Below, one piece after another: positions 1,477-16,837 of a DNA stretch of 64,000 nucleotides. Position 1 is the first letter of the stretch, and each line of letters begins with the position of its first letter. A model generated the notes under the pieces. That model was given only the letters and a program-made list of their open reading frames with translations, did not search any database and had not been told where the DNA came from. The DNA is from Terriglobus aquaticus (GTDB taxonomy: Bacteria; Acidobacteriota; Terriglobia; Terriglobales; Acidobacteriaceae): positions 1,488,001-1,552,000 of the forward strand of contig NZ_JAGSYB010000001.1 of the NCBI RefSeq assembly GCF_025685415.1, in the 5' to 3' direction. Position numbers and translations under genes: made by a program.

Positions 1477-2904
1477 ATGGAAGCGCTCGGAATCGTCATC
1501 ATGGCCGCCGGCAAAGGCACTCGCCTCAAAAGCAGCCGTCCCAAGGTCCTACACGCCGTCGGCGGCAAGCTGCTGCTGCAACACGTGATCGATGCTGCGC
1601 TCCAGATCGTGCCGGCATCTGCGATACAGATTGTGATCGGACACCAGGCCGAGATGGTGCGGCAGGCCGTGCAGCACACCGGCGTTCGCTTCGTCCTGCA
1701 GGCGGAGCAGCTCGGTACGGGCCACGCCCTCCAGTGCGTCAAGCAGTCCTACCTCGCGGATCGAGTCGCCCCGCCCGAGAACCTCATCGTCCTCTCCGGT
1801 GACGTACCCCTGATTCGGCCCGAGACCATCGACCGGCTCTGGCAGACCCACACCCGCGAGTCCGCCGCCATGACGATCCTGACCGCCGTGCCCGACAACC
1901 CTCACGGCTACGGCCGAGTGCTGCGCACTGCCCCGGGCTCGGCTGAGGTTCGCGCCATTGTGGAACAGAAATCGCTGACTCCCGAGCAGCTCGCCCAGCC
2001 GGAGCAGATCAGCGAGATCAACAGCGGCATCTACGCCTTTCGCACCAAGTCCCTCTTCCAGAGCCTGGACGCCCTCACCAACACCAACAGCGCCGGCGAG
2101 TTCTACCTGACCGACGTTGCCGCACTGCTTACCTCGGCCGGCGAGCGAGTAGTCGCAGTGGCCGCTGACTCCGTTGACGAAGTCTTGGGCGCCAACACTA
2201 TCGCCGAGATGATGCACCTGGACGCCGCCCTGCGCCGCGCCACGGCCGACCGACTGATGGCGGCTGGCGTCACAATCTTCCGGCCAGACACCGTGGTCAT
2301 CGACAGCACGGTTGAAGTCGGCCCGGACACGGTTGTCGAACCGTACGTCCAGCTTCTTGGAAAGACCCGCATCGGCTCGCACTGCCGCATCCGGTCCTAC
2401 AGCACACTCGAAAACAGCACGGTTGGCGACGGCGTCCTGATCCGCAACGGCTGCGTTCTCGACTCGGCGGAGGTGGCGTCCAACGCCCTCCTTGGCCCTT
2501 ACGCCCACCTGCGGCCACAAAGCCGCATCGGCGAGGGCGCCCACGTCGGCAACTTCGTTGAGACGAAGAAGGCGACCTTGGGGGCGGGCTCCAAGGCCAA
2601 TCACCTCAGCTACTTAGGCGACGCGGAGATTGGTGCCGGCGTCAACATCGGCGCTGGTGTCATCACATGCAATTACGACGGCGTCAACAAACACGTGACC
2701 CGCATCGGCGACCGCAGCTTCATCGGATCGGACAGCACCCTGGTCGCTCCGCTGACCGTCGAGTCGGAAAGCTACGTCGCCGCCGGTAGTTGCATCACCG
2801 AGACGGTCCCGAGCGGCGCCTTGGCCCTGGGCCGGGCACGCCAGGTGACCAAACCGGGATGGGCCGAGCGCCGCAAAGCCGAGCAGCGTAGCCAAAAGGA
2901 CTAA
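1477..2904 (+). CDS. glmU: Bifunctional UDP-N-acetylglucosamine pyrophosphorylase / glucosamine-1-phosphate N-acetyltransferase
   Basis: A 475-residue cytoplasmic enzyme making UDP-GlcNAc for peptidoglycan and LPS: it acetylates GlcN-1-P and then uridylylates the product. The N-terminal pyrophosphorylase domain shows IVIMAAGKGTRLKSSRPKVLH at residues 5-25 and LSGDVPLI near 105. The C-terminal left-handed beta-helix (about 265-455) has hexapeptide repeats such as IGEGAHVGNFVETKKATLG and IGAGVNIGAGVITCNYDG, the latter carrying the usual acetyl-CoA-site residues. The open frame extends far upstream, but family similarity begins at MEALGIVI and the ATG at 1477 has a TACTCT hexamer six bases before it. 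Length is slightly above the usual 456 residues. It is divergent from the sedolisin-like gene. Confidence 0.96.
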   Translation: MEALGIVIMAAGKGTRLKSSRPKVLHAVGGKLLLQHVIDAALQIVPASAIQIVIGHQAEMVRQAVQHTGVRFVLQAEQLGTGHALQCVKQSYLADRVAPPENLIVLSGDVPLIRPETIDRLWQTHTRESAAMTILTAVPDNPHGYGRVLRTAPGSAEVRAIVEQKSLTPEQLAQPEQISEINSGIYAFRTKSLFQSLDALTNTNSAGEFYLTDVAALLTSAGERVVAVAADSVDEVLGANTIAEMMHLDAALRRATADRLMAAGVTIFRPDTVVIDSTVEVGPDTVVEPYVQLLGKTRIGSHCRIRSYSTLENSTVGDGVLIRNGCVLDSAEVASNALLGPYAHLRPQSRIGEGAHVGNFVETKKATLGAGSKANHLSYLGDAEIGAGVNIGAGVITCNYDGVNKHVTRIGDRSFIGSDSTLVAPLTVESESYVAAGSCITETVPSGALALGRARQVTKPGWAERRKAEQRSQKD

Positions 2905-2999
2905 TTCCTGCTCACCTCCGGTTCTCTCGCCCGTCCGGTCGCGTCATTCTATGAACTTTGGAAGACTTTTGCATTTTTCTGTAGAAAGGGGAAACTAAC

Positions 3000-3148
3000 A
3001 GCCCCAATCTGCGTCATACTGAGTGTGGGCGATGAGAAGTTCCAAAGCCCATTCGAGTTTCGCGGACGGTAGAGCGCACATCCCGCCGCAGCAAGTTGCG
3101 TCACTGGCCTCCCCCGTATGGGTGTCACAACCCATACGGGCTTTTTTT
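3000..3148 (+). ncRNA. Possible small RNA ending in the terminator at 3113-3148
   Basis: The 288-base gap between glmU and the next gene has an AT-rich stretch at about 2945-3000, then a region with several short inverted repeats (TGGGC near 3036 with GCCCA near 3057; GCGG near 3062 with CCGC near 3085), and ends in a textbook terminator. This could be a 3' UTR or an independent small RNA. I do not recognise it as 6S, SRP or tmRNA, and no known consensus is matched. Confidence 0.2.
3113..3148 (+). terminator. Rho-independent terminator
   Basis: A perfect 11-bp stem (CCCGTATGGGT with ACCCATACGGG), a 6-base loop and then C plus seven T. It lies 209 bases after the glmU stop and ends transcription from glmU or from an intergenic small RNA. 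Confidence 0.9.
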
Positions 3149-3180
3149 GCTTCCGCGAAGGTCCCCGGCGCCGAAACCGA

Positions 3181-3186
3181 TAAACT
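3181..3186 (+). promoter_or_regulatory. Candidate -10 hexamer (leaderless) of the PCYCGC-type gene
   Basis: TAAACT lies exactly six bases before the ATG at 3193, with no ribosome binding site between them. Confidence 0.45.
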
Positions 3187-3192
3187 CGACTC

Positions 3193-3630
3193 ATGAAGCG
3201 TTATCTCGCTCTGGCCGCCATCGCCTTCGCGACCGTTGCAGCCTCCGCCCAATGGGGCAATCCCGCCGAAGACATTCCCGCCTACAACGCTGCGGCGCCG
3301 CACGCTCCGCTGCCGCCCGTCCTGTCAGGTGGCCAGCTCAGCGGTCCTTACTTCGCGCACCCGTACCAGGTCACCACGTACCAGATGGCGCAGAAGATCC
3401 CGACCGTCCTGCACCAGTTGCCCTGCTATTGCCGCTGTGACCGCGCCATGGGCCACAACAGTCTGCATTCCTGCTTTGAGGGAACGCACGGCGCTGCGTG
3501 CTCCACCTGCATGAAGGAAGACGTGTACGCCTACCAGCAGACGAAACTGGGCCGCACCCCAGCGCAAATTCGCACCGGCATCGAAAAAGGCGAGTGGATG
3601 AACATCGACCTGGAGGCTGCGAAGCTCTAG
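3193..3630 (+). CDS. Secreted PCYCGC-motif (CYCXC-type) protein
   Basis: A 145-residue protein with a signal peptide (MKRYLALAAIAFATVAASAQ). The conserved part at about 75-105 reads PCYCRCDRAMGHNSLHSCFEGTHGAACSTC, matching the PCYCGC/CYCXC family of exported small proteins found in Gram-positive bacteria and acidobacteria. The usual PCYCGC core is PCYCRC here, so Gly is replaced by Arg. Seven cysteines and several histidines suggest metal or redox chemistry, but the family function is unknown to me. The preceding sequence (ALPPVLSGGQLSGPYFAHPYQVTTYQMAQKIPTVLHQLPCY, in part) is typical of these proteins. It is transcribed alone, with a terminator upstream and a convergent ROK gene downstream. 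Confidence 0.8.
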   Translation: MKRYLALAAIAFATVAASAQWGNPAEDIPAYNAAAPHAPLPPVLSGGQLSGPYFAHPYQVTTYQMAQKIPTVLHQLPCYCRCDRAMGHNSLHSCFEGTHGAACSTCMKEDVYAYQQTKLGRTPAQIRTGIEKGEWMNIDLEAAKL

Positions 3631-3666
3631 CCGCTGCAGCGCTCGCAGAGCAGCACCCGGCGAGCG

Positions 3667-4602
3667 CTACACCATCGGTTTGGACGCATTCGCGTCCAAC
3701 GGCCAGAGCCAGGCTGCTCCGCGAACACCACTCGCGTCGCCATGCACCGCCTGCAGGATCGGCGTTTCCACCGGCCCGCCAAACGTGTACTGGTTCAACA
3801 GCCTCGGGACATTGCGATACAGCCGGGCCAGGCGCGAAAGCCCGCCACCAATCACAAACGCGTCTGGGTCCAGAATGTGGACCAGCCCCGCCAGGGAACG
3901 CGCCACTCGATCTTCGAGCCGCTGCAGGGCGGCCTCTGCTTCGGCATCGCCCTTCTCACTCAGCGATACGATCTCCGGCCCGCGTAGTGCTTTGCCCGTC
4001 GCCTGCTGAAAGTCCCGCTCGAGGCCACTCCCCGAAATCCACTTCTCAATACATCCACGCCGACCGCAGTAGCATTCAGGTCCGGGCCACTCCTCGGGTG
4101 ATTGCAGCGGAAGCGGGTTGTGTCCCCATTCGCCCCCGAGCCCGTTGGGCCCGCTGTGAACCCGTCCCTCGATCGAAACACCGCCACCACAGCCAGTCCC
4201 CAGGATTACGCCAAACACCACCGGGTACCCGGCAGCCGCGCCGTCGATTGCTTCTGAGATCGCGAGGCAGTTCGCGTCGTTCGCGCAGCGCACTTCCCTG
4301 CTCATCCGCGCGGAGAGATCGCGCTCGAGTGGCATACCGTTGAGCCACGTCGAGTTCGCATTCTTGACCAGGCCGGTCGACCGAACGACCGTTCCCGGGA
4401 TGCCTACGCCCACTGTGCCCTTCACGCCGGCCCGGGTCTCCAGAGCCTCCGCCGTGGATGCAATCGCCTCGATCGTCCCGGGGTAGTCGCCCTTCGGCGT
4501 CGCCACCCGGATACGGTCCAGTTCCTTGCCGTCCGCGTCAAACGCGCGGCCTTCGATCTTTGTTCCGCCCAGGTCTATCCCGATCCGTATGCGTTCGCGC
4601 AC
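3667..4602 (-). CDS. ROK-family sugar kinase (fructokinase/N-acetylhexosamine kinase type)
   Basis: A 311-residue ROK kinase phosphorylating a hexose, most like Mak-type fructokinases. Visible motifs are the ATP phosphate loop GIDLGGTKIEG near the start, the ROK signature GVILGTGCGGGV, the histidine of EWGHNPLP, and the zinc-binding CYCGRRGCIEKWISGSGL. I place the start at the GTG at 4602 because AGGAG precedes it at normal spacing and family members begin just before GIDLGGT. A longer frame starts at a TTG at 4647, directly abutting the hldD stop. It is downstream of hldD on the same strand, probably co-transcribed. Substrate is inferred, not visible. Confidence 0.88.
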   Translation of the reverse strand: MRERIRIGIDLGGTKIEGRAFDADGKELDRIRVATPKGDYPGTIEAIASTAEALETRAGVKGTVGVGIPGTVVRSTGLVKNANSTWLNGMPLERDLSARMSREVRCANDANCLAISEAIDGAAAGYPVVFGVILGTGCGGGVSIEGRVHSGPNGLGGEWGHNPLPLQSPEEWPGPECYCGRRGCIEKWISGSGLERDFQQATGKALRGPEIVSLSEKGDAEAEAALQRLEDRVARSLAGLVHILDPDAFVIGGGLSRLARLYRNVPRLLNQYTFGGPVETPILQAVHGDASGVRGAAWLWPLDANASKPMV

Positions 4603-4647
4603 CCTCTGCTCCTGACCCTTTTTCAATCCCGTATCGAACCACAGCAA

Positions 4648-5637
4648 TCACGACCGCGCGTTGAGATACGTGGTCACATAATCGCGCACACCCTCTTCCA
4701 GAGTCGTAAAGGGCTGGTTATACCCGGCAGCGCGCAGTTTATCCATCTTTGCTTCTGTGAAGTACTGGTACTTGCCCTGCAAAGTTTCCGGCATGTCGAT
4801 GTATTCAATCTGCGGCCGGTGTCCCATGGCCGCATACACAGCGGTCACCAGGTCGTTCCAGGTGCGCGCAGTGCCGGTGCCGCAGTTGAACAGGCCTCCA
4901 ATCTCCCGGTGCTCGGCCAGGTACAGCGTCACATCCACCGCATCCTTTACGTAGACAAAATCCCGCATCTGTTCACCGTCGCGGTAGTCCTGGCGGTGAC
5001 TCTTGAACAGTTGCACCTTGCCACTGCCGTCCCCGATCTGCCCGAAGCTCTTGTTCACCACGGATCGCATGTCATCCTTGTGGTCCTCATACGGCCCGTA
5101 CACGTTGAAGTACTTCAATCCGGCGATCGGGTTCTCGCTTTTCGTGAACAGACCATGCTTCAGCGCCCACAAGTCAAACATATGCTTGGAGTAGCCGTAC
5201 ATGTTCAGCGGCTTCAAACCCGGTGTCAGCGCATCGCTGTCGTCGTAGCCCAGGCTGCCATCGCCATACGTGGCCGCCGACGACGCATACACAAGTCGCA
5301 CACCCTTAGCCTGCGACCACTCACACAGCGCGCGGGTGTACGCATAGTTGTTACGCAAAAGGAAGTCCGCATCCCGCTCAGTCGTCGACGAACACGCTCC
5401 CAGATGAACGATGCTGTCGATCTCGGGCAGTTCCGCTTCGCCCAGGTCGTGCAGACGATCCAGAAACTCCTCCGGTGAAATCAGATGTTCGTACTCGAGG
5501 CCGACCAGGTTTTTCCACCGCTCGTCCGTTCCCAGCCGGTCCACCAGCAGAAGTTCCGCATTGCCACGCCGGTTCAATTCCGCCACCACGTTGCGCCCAA
5601 TAAAGCCGGCAGCGCCGGTTACCACGGTCGTCTTCAT
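4648..5637 (-). CDS. hldD: ADP-L-glycero-D-manno-heptose 6-epimerase
   Basis: A 329-residue NAD(P)-dependent extended SDR that converts ADP-D-glycero-D-manno-heptose to the L-glycero form for LPS inner core. It begins MKTTVVTGAAGFIGRNV (Rossmann GxxGxxG), has the catalytic SSAATYGDG and YGYSKHMFD (YxxxK) motifs, and the HldD-type C-terminus GKYQYFTEAKMDKLRAAGY. Start at 5637, where GGGGATG precedes the ATG; a longer frame from 5664 adds nine residues without family similarity. TAGAAT, a good -10 match, lies ten bases upstream. Its presence implies a heptose-containing LPS. A ROK kinase follows. Confidence 0.92.
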   Translation of the reverse strand: MKTTVVTGAAGFIGRNVVAELNRRGNAELLLVDRLGTDERWKNLVGLEYEHLISPEEFLDRLHDLGEAELPEIDSIVHLGACSSTTERDADFLLRNNYAYTRALCEWSQAKGVRLVYASSAATYGDGSLGYDDSDALTPGLKPLNMYGYSKHMFDLWALKHGLFTKSENPIAGLKYFNVYGPYEDHKDDMRSVVNKSFGQIGDGSGKVQLFKSHRQDYRDGEQMRDFVYVKDAVDVTLYLAEHREIGGLFNCGTGTARTWNDLVTAVYAAMGHRPQIEYIDMPETLQGKYQYFTEAKMDKLRAAGYNQPFTTLEEGVRDYVTTYLNARS

Positions 5638-12090: not shown

Positions 12091-13344
12091 TCACCCACCC
12101 CGGACCGTGTTCCACACCAGGGCCGTCGATAGAACAATCACGATCACTGCCGTTCCCCACGCGACTGCGTTGAACCATCGCGAGTTGGTGTGTTCGCCCA
12201 TCAGCTCCTTGTCGTTCACCAGCTTCAACATGAAGTACAGGATCACCGGCAGCAGCAATCCGTTCAGCACCTGCGACAAGATCGCCATGCTCACAATGTT
12301 GAAGCGGGGCAGCAGCACCACCCCTGCTCCCAAGGCCAGCAGCAGCGTGTAGAACCAGTAGAAGATCGGTGCCTGCTTCCAGCTTCGGTCTAGACCGCTT
12401 TCAAAGCCCAGCCCCTCACACACTGTATAGGCCGTGGTCAGCGGCAGGATGGACGCCGCAAACAACGAAGCGTTCAGCAGCCCCGCCGCGAACAGCAGAA
12501 ATGCGTAATCCCCCGCAATGGGGCGCATCGCCTCTGCCGCATCCGCCGGCACGCCGATGTTGCGTACGCCATGGACGAACAGCGTCGCCGCGCACACCAC
12601 CACGATGAACCACGCCACCACGTCGGTGAAGATGGACCCGATGATCACGTCCAGTCGCGACGCCTTGAACTGCCGCACCGTTACGCCCTTCTCCACGATC
12701 GAGGACTGCAGATAAAACTGCATCCACGGCGTGATCGTCGTGCCAATCACCGCGATGGTGGAGTACAGGTATGCGTGGTCGCGCCATGCCGAGCGCGGCG
12801 GCAGCTTCACTGTCTGCACCAGGGCTTCGTGCCAGTCGGGGCGCCCCAGCACACCAGCAACGATGTAGGCCAGGTACACCACGCTGGCAAACAGGAAGAT
12901 CTTTTCCACACTCTTGTAGTCGCCGCGCACCACCAGCGCCCACACCAGCAGCGCTCCGATCGGTACGCTGATGAATTTCGACACATGAAAGAGCTGCATC
13001 GATCCGGCAATGCCCGCGAACTCGGTCACCACGTTCGTGAAGTTCACCACGACCAGCAGCAGCATGCAGACCGCAGTCACGCGCAACCCGAACTCTTCGC
13101 GGATCAGGTCGCTCAGTCCCTTGCCCGTCACCGCGCCCATGCGCGCGCACATCTCCTGCACCACGATCAGCGCCAGCGTGATCGGAATCATCGTCCACAG
13201 CAGCGAGTAACCGTACTGCGCACCCGCCTGAGAGTACGTAAAGATGCCACCCGCGTCGTTGTCCACGTTGGCGGTGATGAACCCAGGCCCCAGCGCCGCG
13301 AGGAAGAACAGGATGCGGCCGCGCCAACTGCGCCACAGGCTCAC
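12091..13344 (-). CDS. Nramp-related transporter with NRMT-type (Mg2+) binding-site substitutions
   Basis: A 417-residue inner-membrane protein of the Nramp/SLC11 fold with about 11 hydrophobic segments. The TM1 motif that reads DPGN in Mn/Fe transporters is DNDA here (residues 28-31): the Asp is kept and the Asn becomes Ala. The TM6 MPH motif is TPW (205-207), so the transition-metal-coordinating Met is lost. The TM3 region TEFAGIAGS is recognisable. These changes are what is described for the NRMT clade of Nramp-related Mg2+ transporters, so Mg2+ uptake is the best prediction. Its start overlaps the stop of the CgeB-like gene by four bases. It sits in one operon with a soluble MgtE-N/CBS protein, which supports Mg2+. 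Confidence 0.85.
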   Translation of the reverse strand: MSLWRSWRGRILFFLAALGPGFITANVDNDAGGIFTYSQAGAQYGYSLLWTMIPITLALIVVQEMCARMGAVTGKGLSDLIREEFGLRVTAVCMLLLVVVNFTNVVTEFAGIAGSMQLFHVSKFISVPIGALLVWALVVRGDYKSVEKIFLFASVVYLAYIVAGVLGRPDWHEALVQTVKLPPRSAWRDHAYLYSTIAVIGTTITPWMQFYLQSSIVEKGVTVRQFKASRLDVIIGSIFTDVVAWFIVVVCAATLFVHGVRNIGVPADAAEAMRPIAGDYAFLLFAAGLLNASLFAASILPLTTAYTVCEGLGFESGLDRSWKQAPIFYWFYTLLLALGAGVVLLPRFNIVSMAILSQVLNGLLLPVILYFMLKLVNDKELMGEHTNSRWFNAVAWGTAVIVIVLSTALVWNTVRGG

Positions 13345-14417
13345 GCGTACACCTCGCCATCCCGTGCATGTGACGCCGCACCGCGCCCTCGGGTCAGCGG
13401 CGCCACGCGTTCCAGAATGAGCCTGACCTGCGTGTCATTGTCATAGCCACTCGTCCACGCGCGTCTCTGTCCTGCCAGCGCAATGCGATTGCGCGCCGCC
13501 TCGTCCGGCAGGTATCGCCGCACCTTTGCCAGCAGCTCGTCGTAGCCATGAAAGAACACGGCCTCCTCATCCTCTACGAACCGTGCCGTGTGCCCGGGGC
13601 TGCGCTCCGCAAGTAGAAACCCGCCGCAAGCCGCGATCTCAAAGCTCTTGTGCACGAACTCGTCCGCGTTGCTGTGGGTGAGAAAACTCAGGTTGATTCT
13701 GGATCGCCAGATCGCCGACCGGTACTGATCCCGGTACAATTCGCCCTCACGATACAGAGCCGCAAACTCCTCCGCGCTCAGCTTCGGCTTCCAATGCTGC
13801 GGCCCGCCGCTAATCGCCACCGGCAAGCCCTCGCGTGCCAGCCGTGTCAATGTCTCCGCTCGCTGGTCATACGCCGTTCCGATGAACGAGACACCGCGAT
13901 CCCTCTGCGCGTCCGTGTACGGCTTTTCCGCGGGGAAATGGATGGTGGGTTCAAACGCGGTTTGAATCTTGATCACATCCCGAGCGCCTGCAGCCATGTA
14001 CTCGGGCACATTCGCGTCGCGCTGGGTGCAGTGCAGATCGAACAGCGGGATCGTCTTCGCATACAGTCGCCAGCCCGGATCCCGTCGCGGCCCGAAGAAG
14101 TTGTCGATCATGTAGCTGATGGTGGGAATGCCCATCGCGCGGAATGCGTCCAGGGTGGCGGGCTGCAGAAATAGCGCCTTGTCGCACCACAGCACATCGG
14201 GCCGGTGCTGCCTCGCGAGCGCGATCAGGTCACGGTTGAACCGCCGCACCTCCGGGCCTGCTACCAGCCGATGCTCCACTTTGCGGAGCAAAACCTGCTT
14301 CATGCCGTAGCCATATTGATTGACCGGAATGCACGTATGCCCCCCACGTTCCAGTGCAAGCCTGCGGTACTCCGCTGAATCGTTGGGCGACAAGTGCGCC
14401 ACGTACAGAACCCGCAC
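13341..14417 (-). CDS. CgeB-like glycosyltransferase
   Basis: A 358-residue protein resembling the CgeB/Glyco_trans_1_2 group of GT-B glycosyltransferases. It opens with MRVLYVAHLSPNDSAEYRR (first Rossmann strand). In the C-terminal half it has INLSFLTHSNADEFVHKSFEIAACGGFLLAERSPGHTARF, quoted only in part here: the E-AACGGFLL stretch is the nucleotide-sugar site typical of the group. Substrate is unknown. It lies between the MgtE-N/CBS gene, whose stop it directly follows, and the Nramp gene, which it overlaps by four bases. Tight coupling suggests co-expression, but I see no obvious functional link to metal transport. Confidence 0.75.
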   Translation of the reverse strand: MRVLYVAHLSPNDSAEYRRLALERGGHTCIPVNQYGYGMKQVLLRKVEHRLVAGPEVRRFNRDLIALARQHRPDVLWCDKALFLQPATLDAFRAMGIPTISYMIDNFFGPRRDPGWRLYAKTIPLFDLHCTQRDANVPEYMAAGARDVIKIQTAFEPTIHFPAEKPYTDAQRDRGVSFIGTAYDQRAETLTRLAREGLPVAISGGPQHWKPKLSAEEFAALYREGELYRDQYRSAIWRSRINLSFLTHSNADEFVHKSFEIAACGGFLLAERSPGHTARFVEDEEAVFFHGYDELLAKVRRYLPDEAARNRIALAGQRRAWTSGYDNDTQVRLILERVAPLTRGRGAASHARDGEVYA

Positions 14418-15689
14418 CTATCGCTCCTCCCGCAGCAGCGCGATCACGTGCTCAGCGTAGATCACGCCTTCCAGCTTGCCTTGTTCGTCCACCACCGCCA
14501 GGGAACGCAGGTTGTACTTGTCGAACTGCTCGGCGATCTGCTTCGCCGTCATATCCACGCGGCAACAGTGAATGCGCTCTTCCTGCACCTCGCGCAGCGG
14601 AGTATCGGCACTGGCCAGCAGGAGGCGAGCCAGGTTCACCACGCCACACAAACCGCCGTGTGCGTTCGTGATGAAGATCTCAGTAACGGTCTCCACATCC
14701 CCTTCAAAGTCGCGCAACGCCTGTACAGCCGAGGCTACGGTAGAGCCTTCCGGAAGCGCTACCAGGTCGCTCGTCATCATGCCGGCCGCCACGTCTTCCG
14801 CAAACTCCAGCAGTTCCTCTACGTCCTGCCGTTCCTCCGGCTCCATCTGACGCAGAATCGCGTCCGAACGCTCCTCCGGCAGCTCCGAGAGCAGATCCGC
14901 CGCTGCCGCCGGATCCATTTCCTCCACAATGTCGGCCACGCGGCTGGACTCCATGTGCTCCAGCAGCGATCTCTGCAGCTTCGGCTCAATCTCCTCCAGC
15001 GCCTCGGCCGCAACCTCTTCATCCAGCGACTTGAAAATCGCATCGCGCTCTGCCGGTGCCAAGTCCTCCAGGATGTCCGCGATGTCCGACGGGTGCATCT
15101 TCGACAAACGGTCCTGCTCCACCGTCAGCCGGACGCGGCGCGCCGGGTCGCGATCAATCAGGTCGACAAACTCCCACGGGATCACGCGCGGCATAAACCG
15201 ATGCGCCACCGACTCCACGGCGGCCGGCGGCAAACCGTGCAGGAGCCTGCGCATGGCGCCGCGCATGCCGACCTCTACCTCCGCGATGCGCAGGTCACAC
15301 GCCCGCCCGTCTTCGCACTCCCACACCAGGTCCACGTCGTTCACGCGCACCACCTTGTGGCCGTGCACGTCAATGATCTGTTGGTCGAGCACGTCGCGTT
15401 CCAGCAACACGCTTGTGGCATCTTCCACCAGCGGCTCCGGCGTGTAATCTTCTGCGACGAGCATCGACGCATCGGCTTGCAGGTGCAGGTGCTCCGTCCG
15501 AACCGTAACCGCTTCTGATCCGCGGAACCGGCCGTTGCGAGTGAGCACCAGGGCGTACACATGCGTGGTGCTTTGCAGGCCGCGAAACAGAAACTCTGCG
15601 ATCCGGCCGGCGCTGCTGCCGTCCTTGCGCAGCACGGGGCGGCCCAGCAGCGTCGCTACGGTGGTGCGCCGTGCATGAACTGCTGACAC
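14418..15689 (-). CDS. Soluble PRC-barrel / MgtE N-domain / tandem CBS protein
   Basis: A 423-residue soluble protein. Residues about 10-60 (TLLGRPVLRKDGSSAGRIAEFLF) and about 93-130 (RDVLDQQIIDVHGHKVVRVNDVDL) look like PRC-barrel-type domains. Residues about 195-295 repeat the MgtE N-domain superhelix (MHPSDIADILEDLAP, MESSRVADIVEEMDP). Two CBS domains follow, starting at MMTSDLVALPEGSTV and at RVDMTAKQIAEQFDK. The C-terminal Mg2+ channel helices of MgtE are absent: the protein ends at VIALLREER with no membrane segment. In MgtE, the N and CBS domains sense Mg2+ and close the pore. Here they probably gate the Nramp-like transporter of the same operon. The GTG at 15689 is chosen because GGGAGG precedes it; the frame stays open to 15797. 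Confidence 0.82.
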   Translation of the reverse strand: MSAVHARRTTVATLLGRPVLRKDGSSAGRIAEFLFRGLQSTTHVYALVLTRNGRFRGSEAVTVRTEHLHLQADASMLVAEDYTPEPLVEDATSVLLERDVLDQQIIDVHGHKVVRVNDVDLVWECEDGRACDLRIAEVEVGMRGAMRRLLHGLPPAAVESVAHRFMPRVIPWEFVDLIDRDPARRVRLTVEQDRLSKMHPSDIADILEDLAPAERDAIFKSLDEEVAAEALEEIEPKLQRSLLEHMESSRVADIVEEMDPAAAADLLSELPEERSDAILRQMEPEERQDVEELLEFAEDVAAGMMTSDLVALPEGSTVASAVQALRDFEGDVETVTEIFITNAHGGLCGVVNLARLLLASADTPLREVQEERIHCCRVDMTAKQIAEQFDKYNLRSLAVVDEQGKLEGVIYAEHVIALLREER

Positions 15690-15939
15690 TGTCGCACCCT
15701 CCCACGGTCTGCCCTGGCCTGCGCCTATGGGCAGTCTAACTCGCCATGCAGCCTGCAGTTGGCGCTCCGGTCCGGCCAGCAGCAATGACTGCCACAAAGC
15801 TTGGAACCGCTGCTGATTGCTCTGCGTACCTCAGTTACGGCAAACACGACACCTTGACTTTCCGCACCCGCACAAGCACACTGCCCCCAGAACGCGGTTG
15901 TAGGTCAACCACTTCGAACGCATTCCGTTTCTTCTCCAG

Positions 15940-16428
15940 ATGGTGCATGTGAGCGACTCCATGAACGAATCCCTGAACGGTTCCGTAGACGGCTCGGAAG
16001 GCCGTTCCCTCGCAGGCCGGATCGAGCTCACGCTGCCTTCAACCCTGGCCACGGTCGACCGCATGGAGCAGGAAGCGGAACGCTTCGCCACGGAACACGG
16101 CTTCGGCGAAGACGACGCCGCCAACATCGCCATGGCCGCCCGCGAGGCCGCCGTAAATGCTGTCATGCACGGCAACAGCTACAGCAGCGACAAACAGGTG
16201 CACGTGCAGCTCACGTCTGATCAGGCGGCTCTCACCCTCTCCATCCAGGACGAAGGTGCCGGTTTCAACGCAGCTCTTCTGCCGGACCCACTCCTGCCGG
16301 AAAACATCCTGCGCAGCTCGGGCCGGGGCATCTTCCTCATGCGTGCTCTCATGGATGAGGTAAACTTTCGCCAATTGAACCCCGGCACGGAGCTGGTGAT
16401 GACCAAGCGCCGGCAGCCGACATCGTAG
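15940..16428 (+). CDS. RsbW-like anti-sigma factor / GHKL ATPase
   Basis: A 162-residue HATPase_c_2 protein of the RsbW/SpoIIAB group. The N box is AREAAVNAVMHGN near residues 67-79, the G1 box DEGAGF near 107 and the G2 box SGRGIFLMRALMDEV near 128. Such proteins bind a sigma factor or effector and phosphorylate a STAS antagonist. The next gene, 61 bases downstream, encodes a STAS protein, so the two form a partner-switching pair. No sigma factor or PP2C phosphatase gene is nearby. The start is uncertain: ATG at 15940 or ATG at 15961, neither with a clear ribosome binding site. Confidence 0.85.
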   Translation: MVHVSDSMNESLNGSVDGSEGRSLAGRIELTLPSTLATVDRMEQEAERFATEHGFGEDDAANIAMAAREAAVNAVMHGNSYSSDKQVHVQLTSDQAALTLSIQDEGAGFNAALLPDPLLPENILRSSGRGIFLMRALMDEVNFRQLNPGTELVMTKRRQPTS

Positions 16429-16489
16429 AAACCATCAGTCTGGCAGATTGGCGGAACCACGCCACGCAACTCTCCCCGGAGGAAAGACC

Positions 16490-16837
16490 ATGAGCATGAA
16501 GGTAAGCACGCGCCAGGTGGACGGCGTAACCATTCTCGACCTGAGCGGCCGCATTACCCTCGGCGAAGGCAGTGTCACCCTGCGCGATGCCATCCGCGAC
16601 CTCGTCAACAAGGGCGAAAAGCACATCCTGGTGAACCTCGGCGACGTGAGCTACCTCGATAGTTCGGGTCTCGGCGAACTTGTGAGCGCATACACCAGTG
16701 TGAAGAACGCAGGCGGCGAACTTAAGCTGCTGAACCTGACCAAGAAGGTCCACGACCTGCTGCAGATCACCAAGCTCTACACAGTGTTCGACGTCAAGGA
16801 CGACGAAGCCAGCGCTGTTGGCTCCTTCTCCAAGTAG
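16490..16837 (+). CDS. STAS-domain anti-sigma factor antagonist
   Basis: A 115-residue SpoIIAA/RsbV-like protein consisting of one STAS domain. The phosphorylation site is in VSYLDSSGLGELV, where the second Ser is the usual target of the RsbW-type kinase. The opening KVSTRQVDGVTILDLSGRITLGEG is typical. The ATG at 16490 is preceded by GGAGGAAAG; an upstream in-frame ATG at 16448 lacks such a site. It is the partner of the kinase gene just upstream; when dephosphorylated it should bind that kinase and release its target. A bidirectional terminator follows. Confidence 0.92.
   Translation: MSMKVSTRQVDGVTILDLSGRITLGEGSVTLRDAIRDLVNKGEKHILVNLGDVSYLDSSGLGELVSAYTSVKNAGGELKLLNLTKKVHDLLQITKLYTVFDVKDDEASAVGSFSK

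Follow-up and report, generated by a model that had tools for sequence, protein, structure and literature searches.

A pore-less MgtE-like protein encoded with an NRMT-type Nramp homologue in Terriglobus: a further instance of a recurrent and previously described gene pair

We analysed a 64,000-nucleotide stretch of the Terriglobus aquaticus genome (assembly GCF_025685415.1, contig NZ_JAGSYB010000001.1, positions 1,488,001 to 1,552,000; hereafter the window), focusing on three genes that lie head to tail on its minus strand. The first encodes a soluble MgtE-like protein of 423 residues (14418..15689, with a GTG start at 15689), which we refer to as the sensor; the second encodes a glycosyltransferase (13341..14417; Glyco_trans_1_2, PF13524, by Pfam); and the third encodes an Nramp homologue of 417 residues from the NRMT clade (12091..13344), hereafter the carrier, which was identified by its PF01566 match, its PDB match, its motifs and its place in a tree, and to which the SLC11 fold is assigned by homology. 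A first-pass annotation of this DNA had described a tightly packed operon that encodes the sensor and the Nramp homologue together. The packing is indeed tight, in that the sensor stop abuts the glycosyltransferase start and the glycosyltransferase stop overlaps the Nramp start by 4 bases. The two genes also share a strand, but they are not neighbours, since the glycosyltransferase that intervenes (14417-13341) had been overlooked. An in-frame TTG at 15797 is a possible alternative start for the sensor, albeit less likely than the GTG at 15689; the start of an orthologous open reading frame (locus L037) aligns with the GTG.

The carrier matched PF01566 with 311 bits, and its top PDB match in a phmmer search was the NRMT of structure 7qia (384 bits), compared with 100-104 bits for the chains of DraNramp. 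NRMTs are defined by DxxG in transmembrane helix (TM) 1 and TxxA/T in TM6 (PMC8806188). By alignment, the carrier bears DAGG in TM1 (13246..13257, minus strand) and TTIT-P-W in TM6 (12724..12741, minus strand), the latter with Trp at the position where the proton-coupling His would stand. Across 36 aligned NRMTs, the D and G of TM1 were invariant (36/36), the Met position was occupied by T in 13, A in 20 and S in 3, and the proton-coupling His position (Trp207 in the carrier) was W, Y or F in all 36, compared with His in the genome's own MntH. NRMT and MntH split with 100/100 support in a tree of 38 sequences (rooted at its midpoint, and with a program warning about long branches), with the carrier on the EleNRMT side. 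Thus the Mg2+-type site changes that had been noted in the Nramp homologue are present, in the NRMT-type form of DAGG, TTIT and Trp.

EleNRMT (7qia; Ramanadane et al. 2022, PMC8806188), which transports both Mg2+ and Mn2+, is 48% identical to the carrier over the aligned segment. The two proteins have in common the DxxG-TxxA/T site, Trp for His, the TM3 Glu and the TM10 Gln, and they differ in TM6, which reads TxxT in the carrier and TxxA in EleNRMT. The closest named NRMTs among the matches listed, a list from which the window's own record may be missing, were those of a Terriglobus metagenome-assembled genome (MAG; 81% identity) and T. roseus (83%). The window genome also carries one CorA and a classical MntH (locus L002) with DPGN and MPH motifs. 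Like DraNramp, this MntH shares the PF01566 family with the carrier, but the two are 27% identical, the DxxN/AxxM/His ion site is replaced in the carrier, and they occupy the separate branches of the 100/100 split. Judged by its ion-site residues and its homology to EleNRMT and to the Acidobacterium capsulatum protein discussed below, the carrier probably transports Mn2+ as well as Mg2+, the latter at lower affinity, and does so without proton coupling.

The sensor had been described as the MgtE_N and CBS domains of MgtE without its channel. Both domains are present: MgtE_N spans residues 198-299 (14793..15098, minus strand; PF03448, 98 bits, E 4e-28), and the CBS pair spans approximately residues 303-420 (14430..14783, minus strand; Pfam CBS, E 5e-14, together with alignment to MgtE). 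The pore is absent, as Pfam returned no match to the MgtE pore domain (PF01769) in the sensor or elsewhere in the window genome. That description had, however, taken the whole protein to be MgtE-like, whereas its first ~185 residues are PRC-barrel-like and correspond to a region absent from MgtE. This N-terminal region (residues ~11-185; 15135..15659, minus strand) was delimited from orthologue conservation and PF05239, and contains a stretch, DxxDxQIIDxxGxKVVRVND, that is near-invariant across 32 orthologues. At E <= 0.1, the Pfam PRC family (PF05239) matched 27 of these 32 orthologues in the alignment and gave no match to the window's own protein; it also matched 8/8 sensors scanned individually, 7 of them above the cut-off and 7 from outside the 32-orthologue alignment. 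Residues 193-422 of the sensor (MgtE_N and the CBS pair) align with MgtE of Thermus thermophilus (2yvx), and the sensor C-terminus falls at about residue 256 of that protein, inside the plug helix (residues 246-263; PMC5882242). The sensor is the single MgtE_N match in the window genome. We also considered whether a full-length MgtE encoded elsewhere might make use of the fragment, and ruled this out given that the genome has no PF01769 match.

The first-pass annotation knew of no description of such a two-protein system, but one had been in print since 2014. Shin et al. (PMC4072509) reported that most NrmT genes adjoin a gene homologous to the cytosolic domain of MgtE, raised feedback regulation and metal chaperoning as speculative roles for the MgtE-like protein, and put the pair of A. 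capsulatum to the test. The window sensor has the features of these MgtE-like fragments: it is homologous to the cytosolic part of MgtE, lacks the pore and is encoded close to an NrmT gene. In A. capsulatum (ACP2976/ACP2977; G084, L035) the same two families are found, as in the window, with the sensor directly upstream of the carrier; identity to the window proteins is 68% for the carrier and 50% for the sensor. The window differs from both A. capsulatum and the Clostridium acetobutylicum Ca_c0685 operon in having a glycosyltransferase between the two genes. Since the pairing was already in print, the finding as first stated is not new. A search by title and opening lines of abstracts, with subscription papers outside its scope, showed no later literature on the MgtE-like fragment among the matches listed, and a search for PRC-barrel together with NRAMP and 'MgtE N-terminal' found nothing. 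By term count, neither NrmT nor NRMT occurs in a review of Mg2+ transport proteins in bacteria published in 2026 (PMC13209247).

We measured how often the pair recurs, beginning with 150 genomes of the order Terriglobales, in which distances were taken between matches. MgtE_N was matched in 147/150 genomes, and the MgtE pore above the cut-off in 5/150. An NRMT was listed for 144 genomes. In 98 of these, MgtE_N lay upstream on the same strand at a distance of up to 10 kb (up to 1 kb in 34, 1-2 kb in 31 and 2-10 kb in 33); in one more the two matches were equally close but differently arranged, in 8 they lay farther apart on the same contig, and in 37 MgtE_N was on a different contig or not listed. 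Within the window's genus, the pair lay within 10 kb in 12/12 genomes. Two genomes of 99% completeness without MgtE_N (G045 and G119) had no more than weak carrier matches (E 1e-21 and 2e-15). Of 80 loci from named genomes, taken as the best matches of a longer list, 53 carried a same-strand sensor gene upstream of the carrier; sensor-carrier gaps in these loci were labelled direct up to a limit of 700, and the largest gap so labelled was 344. One locus (L067, G080) held tandem NRMT genes (2232-3524 and 3594-4835), which belong to two different Terriglobales subclades in the tree; the sensor gene of this genome lies on a separate contig. Acidobacteriota-like NRMT and sensor pairs also appeared in a Rhodanobacteraceae MAG (L088; carrier 72% identical) and a Bifidobacterium breve MAG (L138; 62%), on contigs that are probably misbinned.

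A second sample covered the phylum, with 119 Acidobacteriota genomes, 11 of them from the window's family, and a cut-off of E <= 1e-60 for NRMT-like matches. A pore-less MgtE_N gene was found in 32/34 genomes with an NRMT-like match, compared with 5/85 genomes without one (Fisher P ~2e-21, a value that ignores shared ancestry). This count left out ten MgtE_N matches, all below 35 bits, and thirteen PF01769 matches. None of the latter lay within 1 kb of a pore-less gene on its contig, and counting the ten weak matches as pore-less would raise the second figure to at most 8/85 (P ~4e-19). The five genes in genomes without an NRMT-like match comprised a 136-residue frame at a contig end (G160), a 200-residue frame (G232), a 507-residue frame without a pore match (G223), and extra copies in G199 and G211. 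In these last two (G199:C3:122169-124240 and G211:C3:129009-131098), the additional MgtE_N stretch immediately precedes a complete MgtE gene, and neither genome has an NRMT match.

The phylum sample contained 38 carrier matches. A pore-less gene lay on the same strand within 12 kb upstream of 15, and 10 had it downstream; 7 others (47-74% identical to the window carrier) had a pore-less gene elsewhere in the genome, and 6 (35-36%) had none near. The ion-site residues of these six unpaired carriers were inspected after the exceptions were known. Four of them (L176, L177, L178 and L180, from G236, G157, G245 and G253, respectively) had a DPSG/TISPY signature and had lost the TM3 Glu and TM10 Gln, and no MgtE-like gene lay nearby; in G157 and G236, the two genomes with an NRMT-like match but no pore-less MgtE_N gene, carriers of this type were the sole carrier matches. 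These proteins perhaps represent the Nramp outgroup. The reversed order, in which the carrier precedes the PRC-MgtE_N-CBS gene, was found in 10 genomes from several Acidobacteriota families, with carriers 35-37% identical to that of the window (loci L155-L163 and L182, in genomes G249, G166, G151, G179, G210, G169, G216, G241, G176 and G257). Nine of the reversed-order carriers formed one side of a branch (100/99 as drawn in the 38-sequence tree) and bore the NRMT signature. Because PF01566 also includes an Nramp outgroup distinct from NRMT (PMC9606685), we term this clade NRMT-like rather than NRMT.

These counts bear on whether unrelated genes have come to lie together by chance, a view to which the glycosyltransferase between the two window genes lends some colour. 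Recurrence of the pair in 98/144 genomes of the order, 53/80 named loci, and 32/34 versus 5/85 genomes of the phylum leads us to reject it, and we regard its probability as negligible. The recurrent neighbourhood across Acidobacteriota that the first-pass annotation had proposed looking for was thus found, and the MgtE-type cytosolic module is linked to the NRMT-type carrier far beyond chance. In all, the pairing is real, strongly recurrent and already described, and the window contributes one more case, from a Terriglobus-like genome.

Of the 53 named pairs, 13 have a relative of the window's glycosyltransferase located between the two genes, 7 with a gap of ~1.1-1.2 kb as in the window and 6 with a gap of 3.8-5.5 kb. 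The sensor-carrier pair persists across the insertion, and the glycosyltransferase is probably a lineage-specific passenger unrelated to metal. In two Terriglobales inserts of the longer kind (L038, 3444-7092; L066, 2845-6502), genes for a GMC oxidoreductase and for an aldo/keto reductase come after the glycosyltransferase in the interval that separates sensor from carrier; the window has the glycosyltransferase alone. On the other side of the sensor, and divergent from it, the window encodes an HATPase_c_2 (RsbW-like) protein and a STAS-domain protein (15940-16837).

We compared 32 Terriglobales sensors with MgtE at its metal sites, using the list of regulatory sites in PMC5882242 and the ATP-site residues in PMC5529423. 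The Mg7 residue E59 was kept as E or D in 31/32 sensors, and the Mg6 residue D95 was D in 32/32; both E59 and D95 are kept in the window sensor, as E229 and D265. In contrast, D226 was replaced by N in all 32, and D250 was never acidic (A, S, T, G or N, 32/32), so that Mg5 is lost. This loss, together with the end of the order's sensors ahead of the Mg2/Mg3 residues of the plug helix, argues against simple gating by Mg2+ in the manner of MgtE. D91 and D247 were each D in 16/32 sensors, and are A and H, respectively, in that of the window. The ATP-site residue F227 was L in 32/32. In the window sensor, the residues of Mg4 and Mg5 are lost and the chain stops short of E258 and D259 (Mg2 and Mg3), so it does not carry the full set of MgtE cytosolic sites Mg2-Mg7. 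Sensors from other families whose carriers follow them in the 'sensor first' order had D at 91 and 247 in 10/10 cases and E or D at 250 in 10/10, with 2 of these ten coming from genomes in which the genes are separated; reversed-order sensors had an acid at 247 in 9/9, but not at 91 or 250. Therefore the window sensor, which unlike T. thermophilus MgtE has no pore, ends in the plug helix and bears an extra PRC-type N-terminus, keeps the architecture of MgtE but only part of its metal chemistry. On these residues, sensing of some divalent metal by the sensor is plausible, while a simple copying of MgtE gating is not.

Riboswitches gave no further guidance. Rfam returned no matches at all in the window, the M-box included, RF00380 was matched in 0/150 genomes of the order under stricter filters, and none was found in 15 related loci; for the Mn riboswitch, the 150 genomes yielded no match above the cut-off and one weak match below it. 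With neither element at the locus, riboswitches do not decide the substrate. The window locus has no M-box upstream and so lies outside the M-box-regulated subset of NrmT genes, in which respect it resembles A. capsulatum and differs from the C. acetobutylicum Ca_c0685 operon (PMC4072509).

As first annotated, the locus was a possible Mg2+ import module gated by Mg2+. In its strict form this reading supposes a dedicated importer of Mg2+ that closes when Mg2+ binds to a separate MgtE-like protein, much as in MgtE. The NRMT-type ion site, the transport of Mg2+ by EleNRMT (PMC8806188), the retention of E59 and D95, and a genome without an MgtE pore match are all consistent with such an importer. 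However, the A. capsulatum carrier rescued a Mg2+-transport mutant only in part, and solely at low-millimolar Mg2+, and rescued a Mn2+-transport mutant fully (PMC4072509). The partner protein did not help, no M-box was found in any of the 150 genomes under the stricter filters, and the window genome has CorA. Furthermore, Mg4 and Mg5 are lost in the window sensor, with D91 and D247 replaced by A and H, the chain ends before Mg2 and Mg3, and F227 is L. We consider the claim of a Mg2+-gated Mg2+ importer doubtful, and a dedicated importer of this kind quite unlikely.

The same complementation results are in line with another reading, in which the pair imports Mn2+ and the MgtE-like protein now senses Mn2+ or some other divalent ion. 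Shin et al. themselves suggested tuning to Mn2+ or another ion for the A. capsulatum pair (PMC4072509), and the loss of several MgtE Mg2+ sites across the order is consistent with it. Set against this, a classical MntH (L002) is already encoded in the genome, the 150 genomes show no Mn riboswitch above the cut-off, and EleNRMT carries both ions (PMC8806188). Since EleNRMT does so, rescue with Mn2+ does not exclude a role in Mg2+ transport. We regard retuning to Mn2+ or another ion as a tentative possibility that falls short of being probable.

With moderate confidence, we favour the interpretation that the locus is a Terriglobus-type copy of the NrmT and MgtE-fragment pair described in 2014, with the fragment regulating the carrier in trans. 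In this model, the pore-less PRC-MgtE_N-CBS protein would be a cytosolic regulator of the carrier, acting in trans; its MgtE_N and CBS part would respond to a cytosolic divalent metal, its PRC-type part may dock it, and it would lower uptake by the carrier when metal is plentiful. Several observations weigh against trans regulation. In 45/144 genomes of the order, the two genes were separated by over 10 kb, placed on different contigs or not both listed; the sensor was absent from 18/80 named loci with at least 3 kb of upstream sequence, while a further 9/80 hold less than 3 kb; second NRMT-like copies in G016 and G002 (DAGA, TIAPW) have no sensor near; and addition of the A. capsulatum MgtE-like protein gave no better rescue with Mg2+ (PMC4072509). 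The last of these is compatible with a negative regulator, which would not be expected to improve rescue.

The separated genes are likewise what might be expected if the soluble protein makes no contact with the carrier and acts in metal chaperoning or buffering, or works with some other partner, the two being kept because both respond to metal supply. Shin et al. named chaperoning as an alternative (PMC4072509), and MgtE has nothing that corresponds to the PRC-type region and its extended near-invariant stretch. The fact that the genes co-occur almost one to one, and do so in both possible orders, argues the other way and favours direct dependence of one protein on the other; we judge a role apart from the carrier to be somewhat unlikely. 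Returning to regulation in trans, the PRC-MgtE_N-CBS protein could conceivably be a separable regulatory subunit that binds the SLC11-fold carrier and lets flux be set by cytosolic divalent metal, a trans gate drawn from a channel family, retained alongside the unrelated carrier fold in both gene orders and equipped with its own PRC-type docking domain. This more specific proposal lies a little below what we would call probable.

Because the co-occurrence is almost complete, the genes are found in both orders and the sensor has a PRC-type region, gating in trans is open to direct test. If the carrier is gated in this way, then the sensor domain of a Mg2+ channel can control a carrier of unrelated fold, which would suggest how an uncoupled divalent uniporter avoids overloading the cell.

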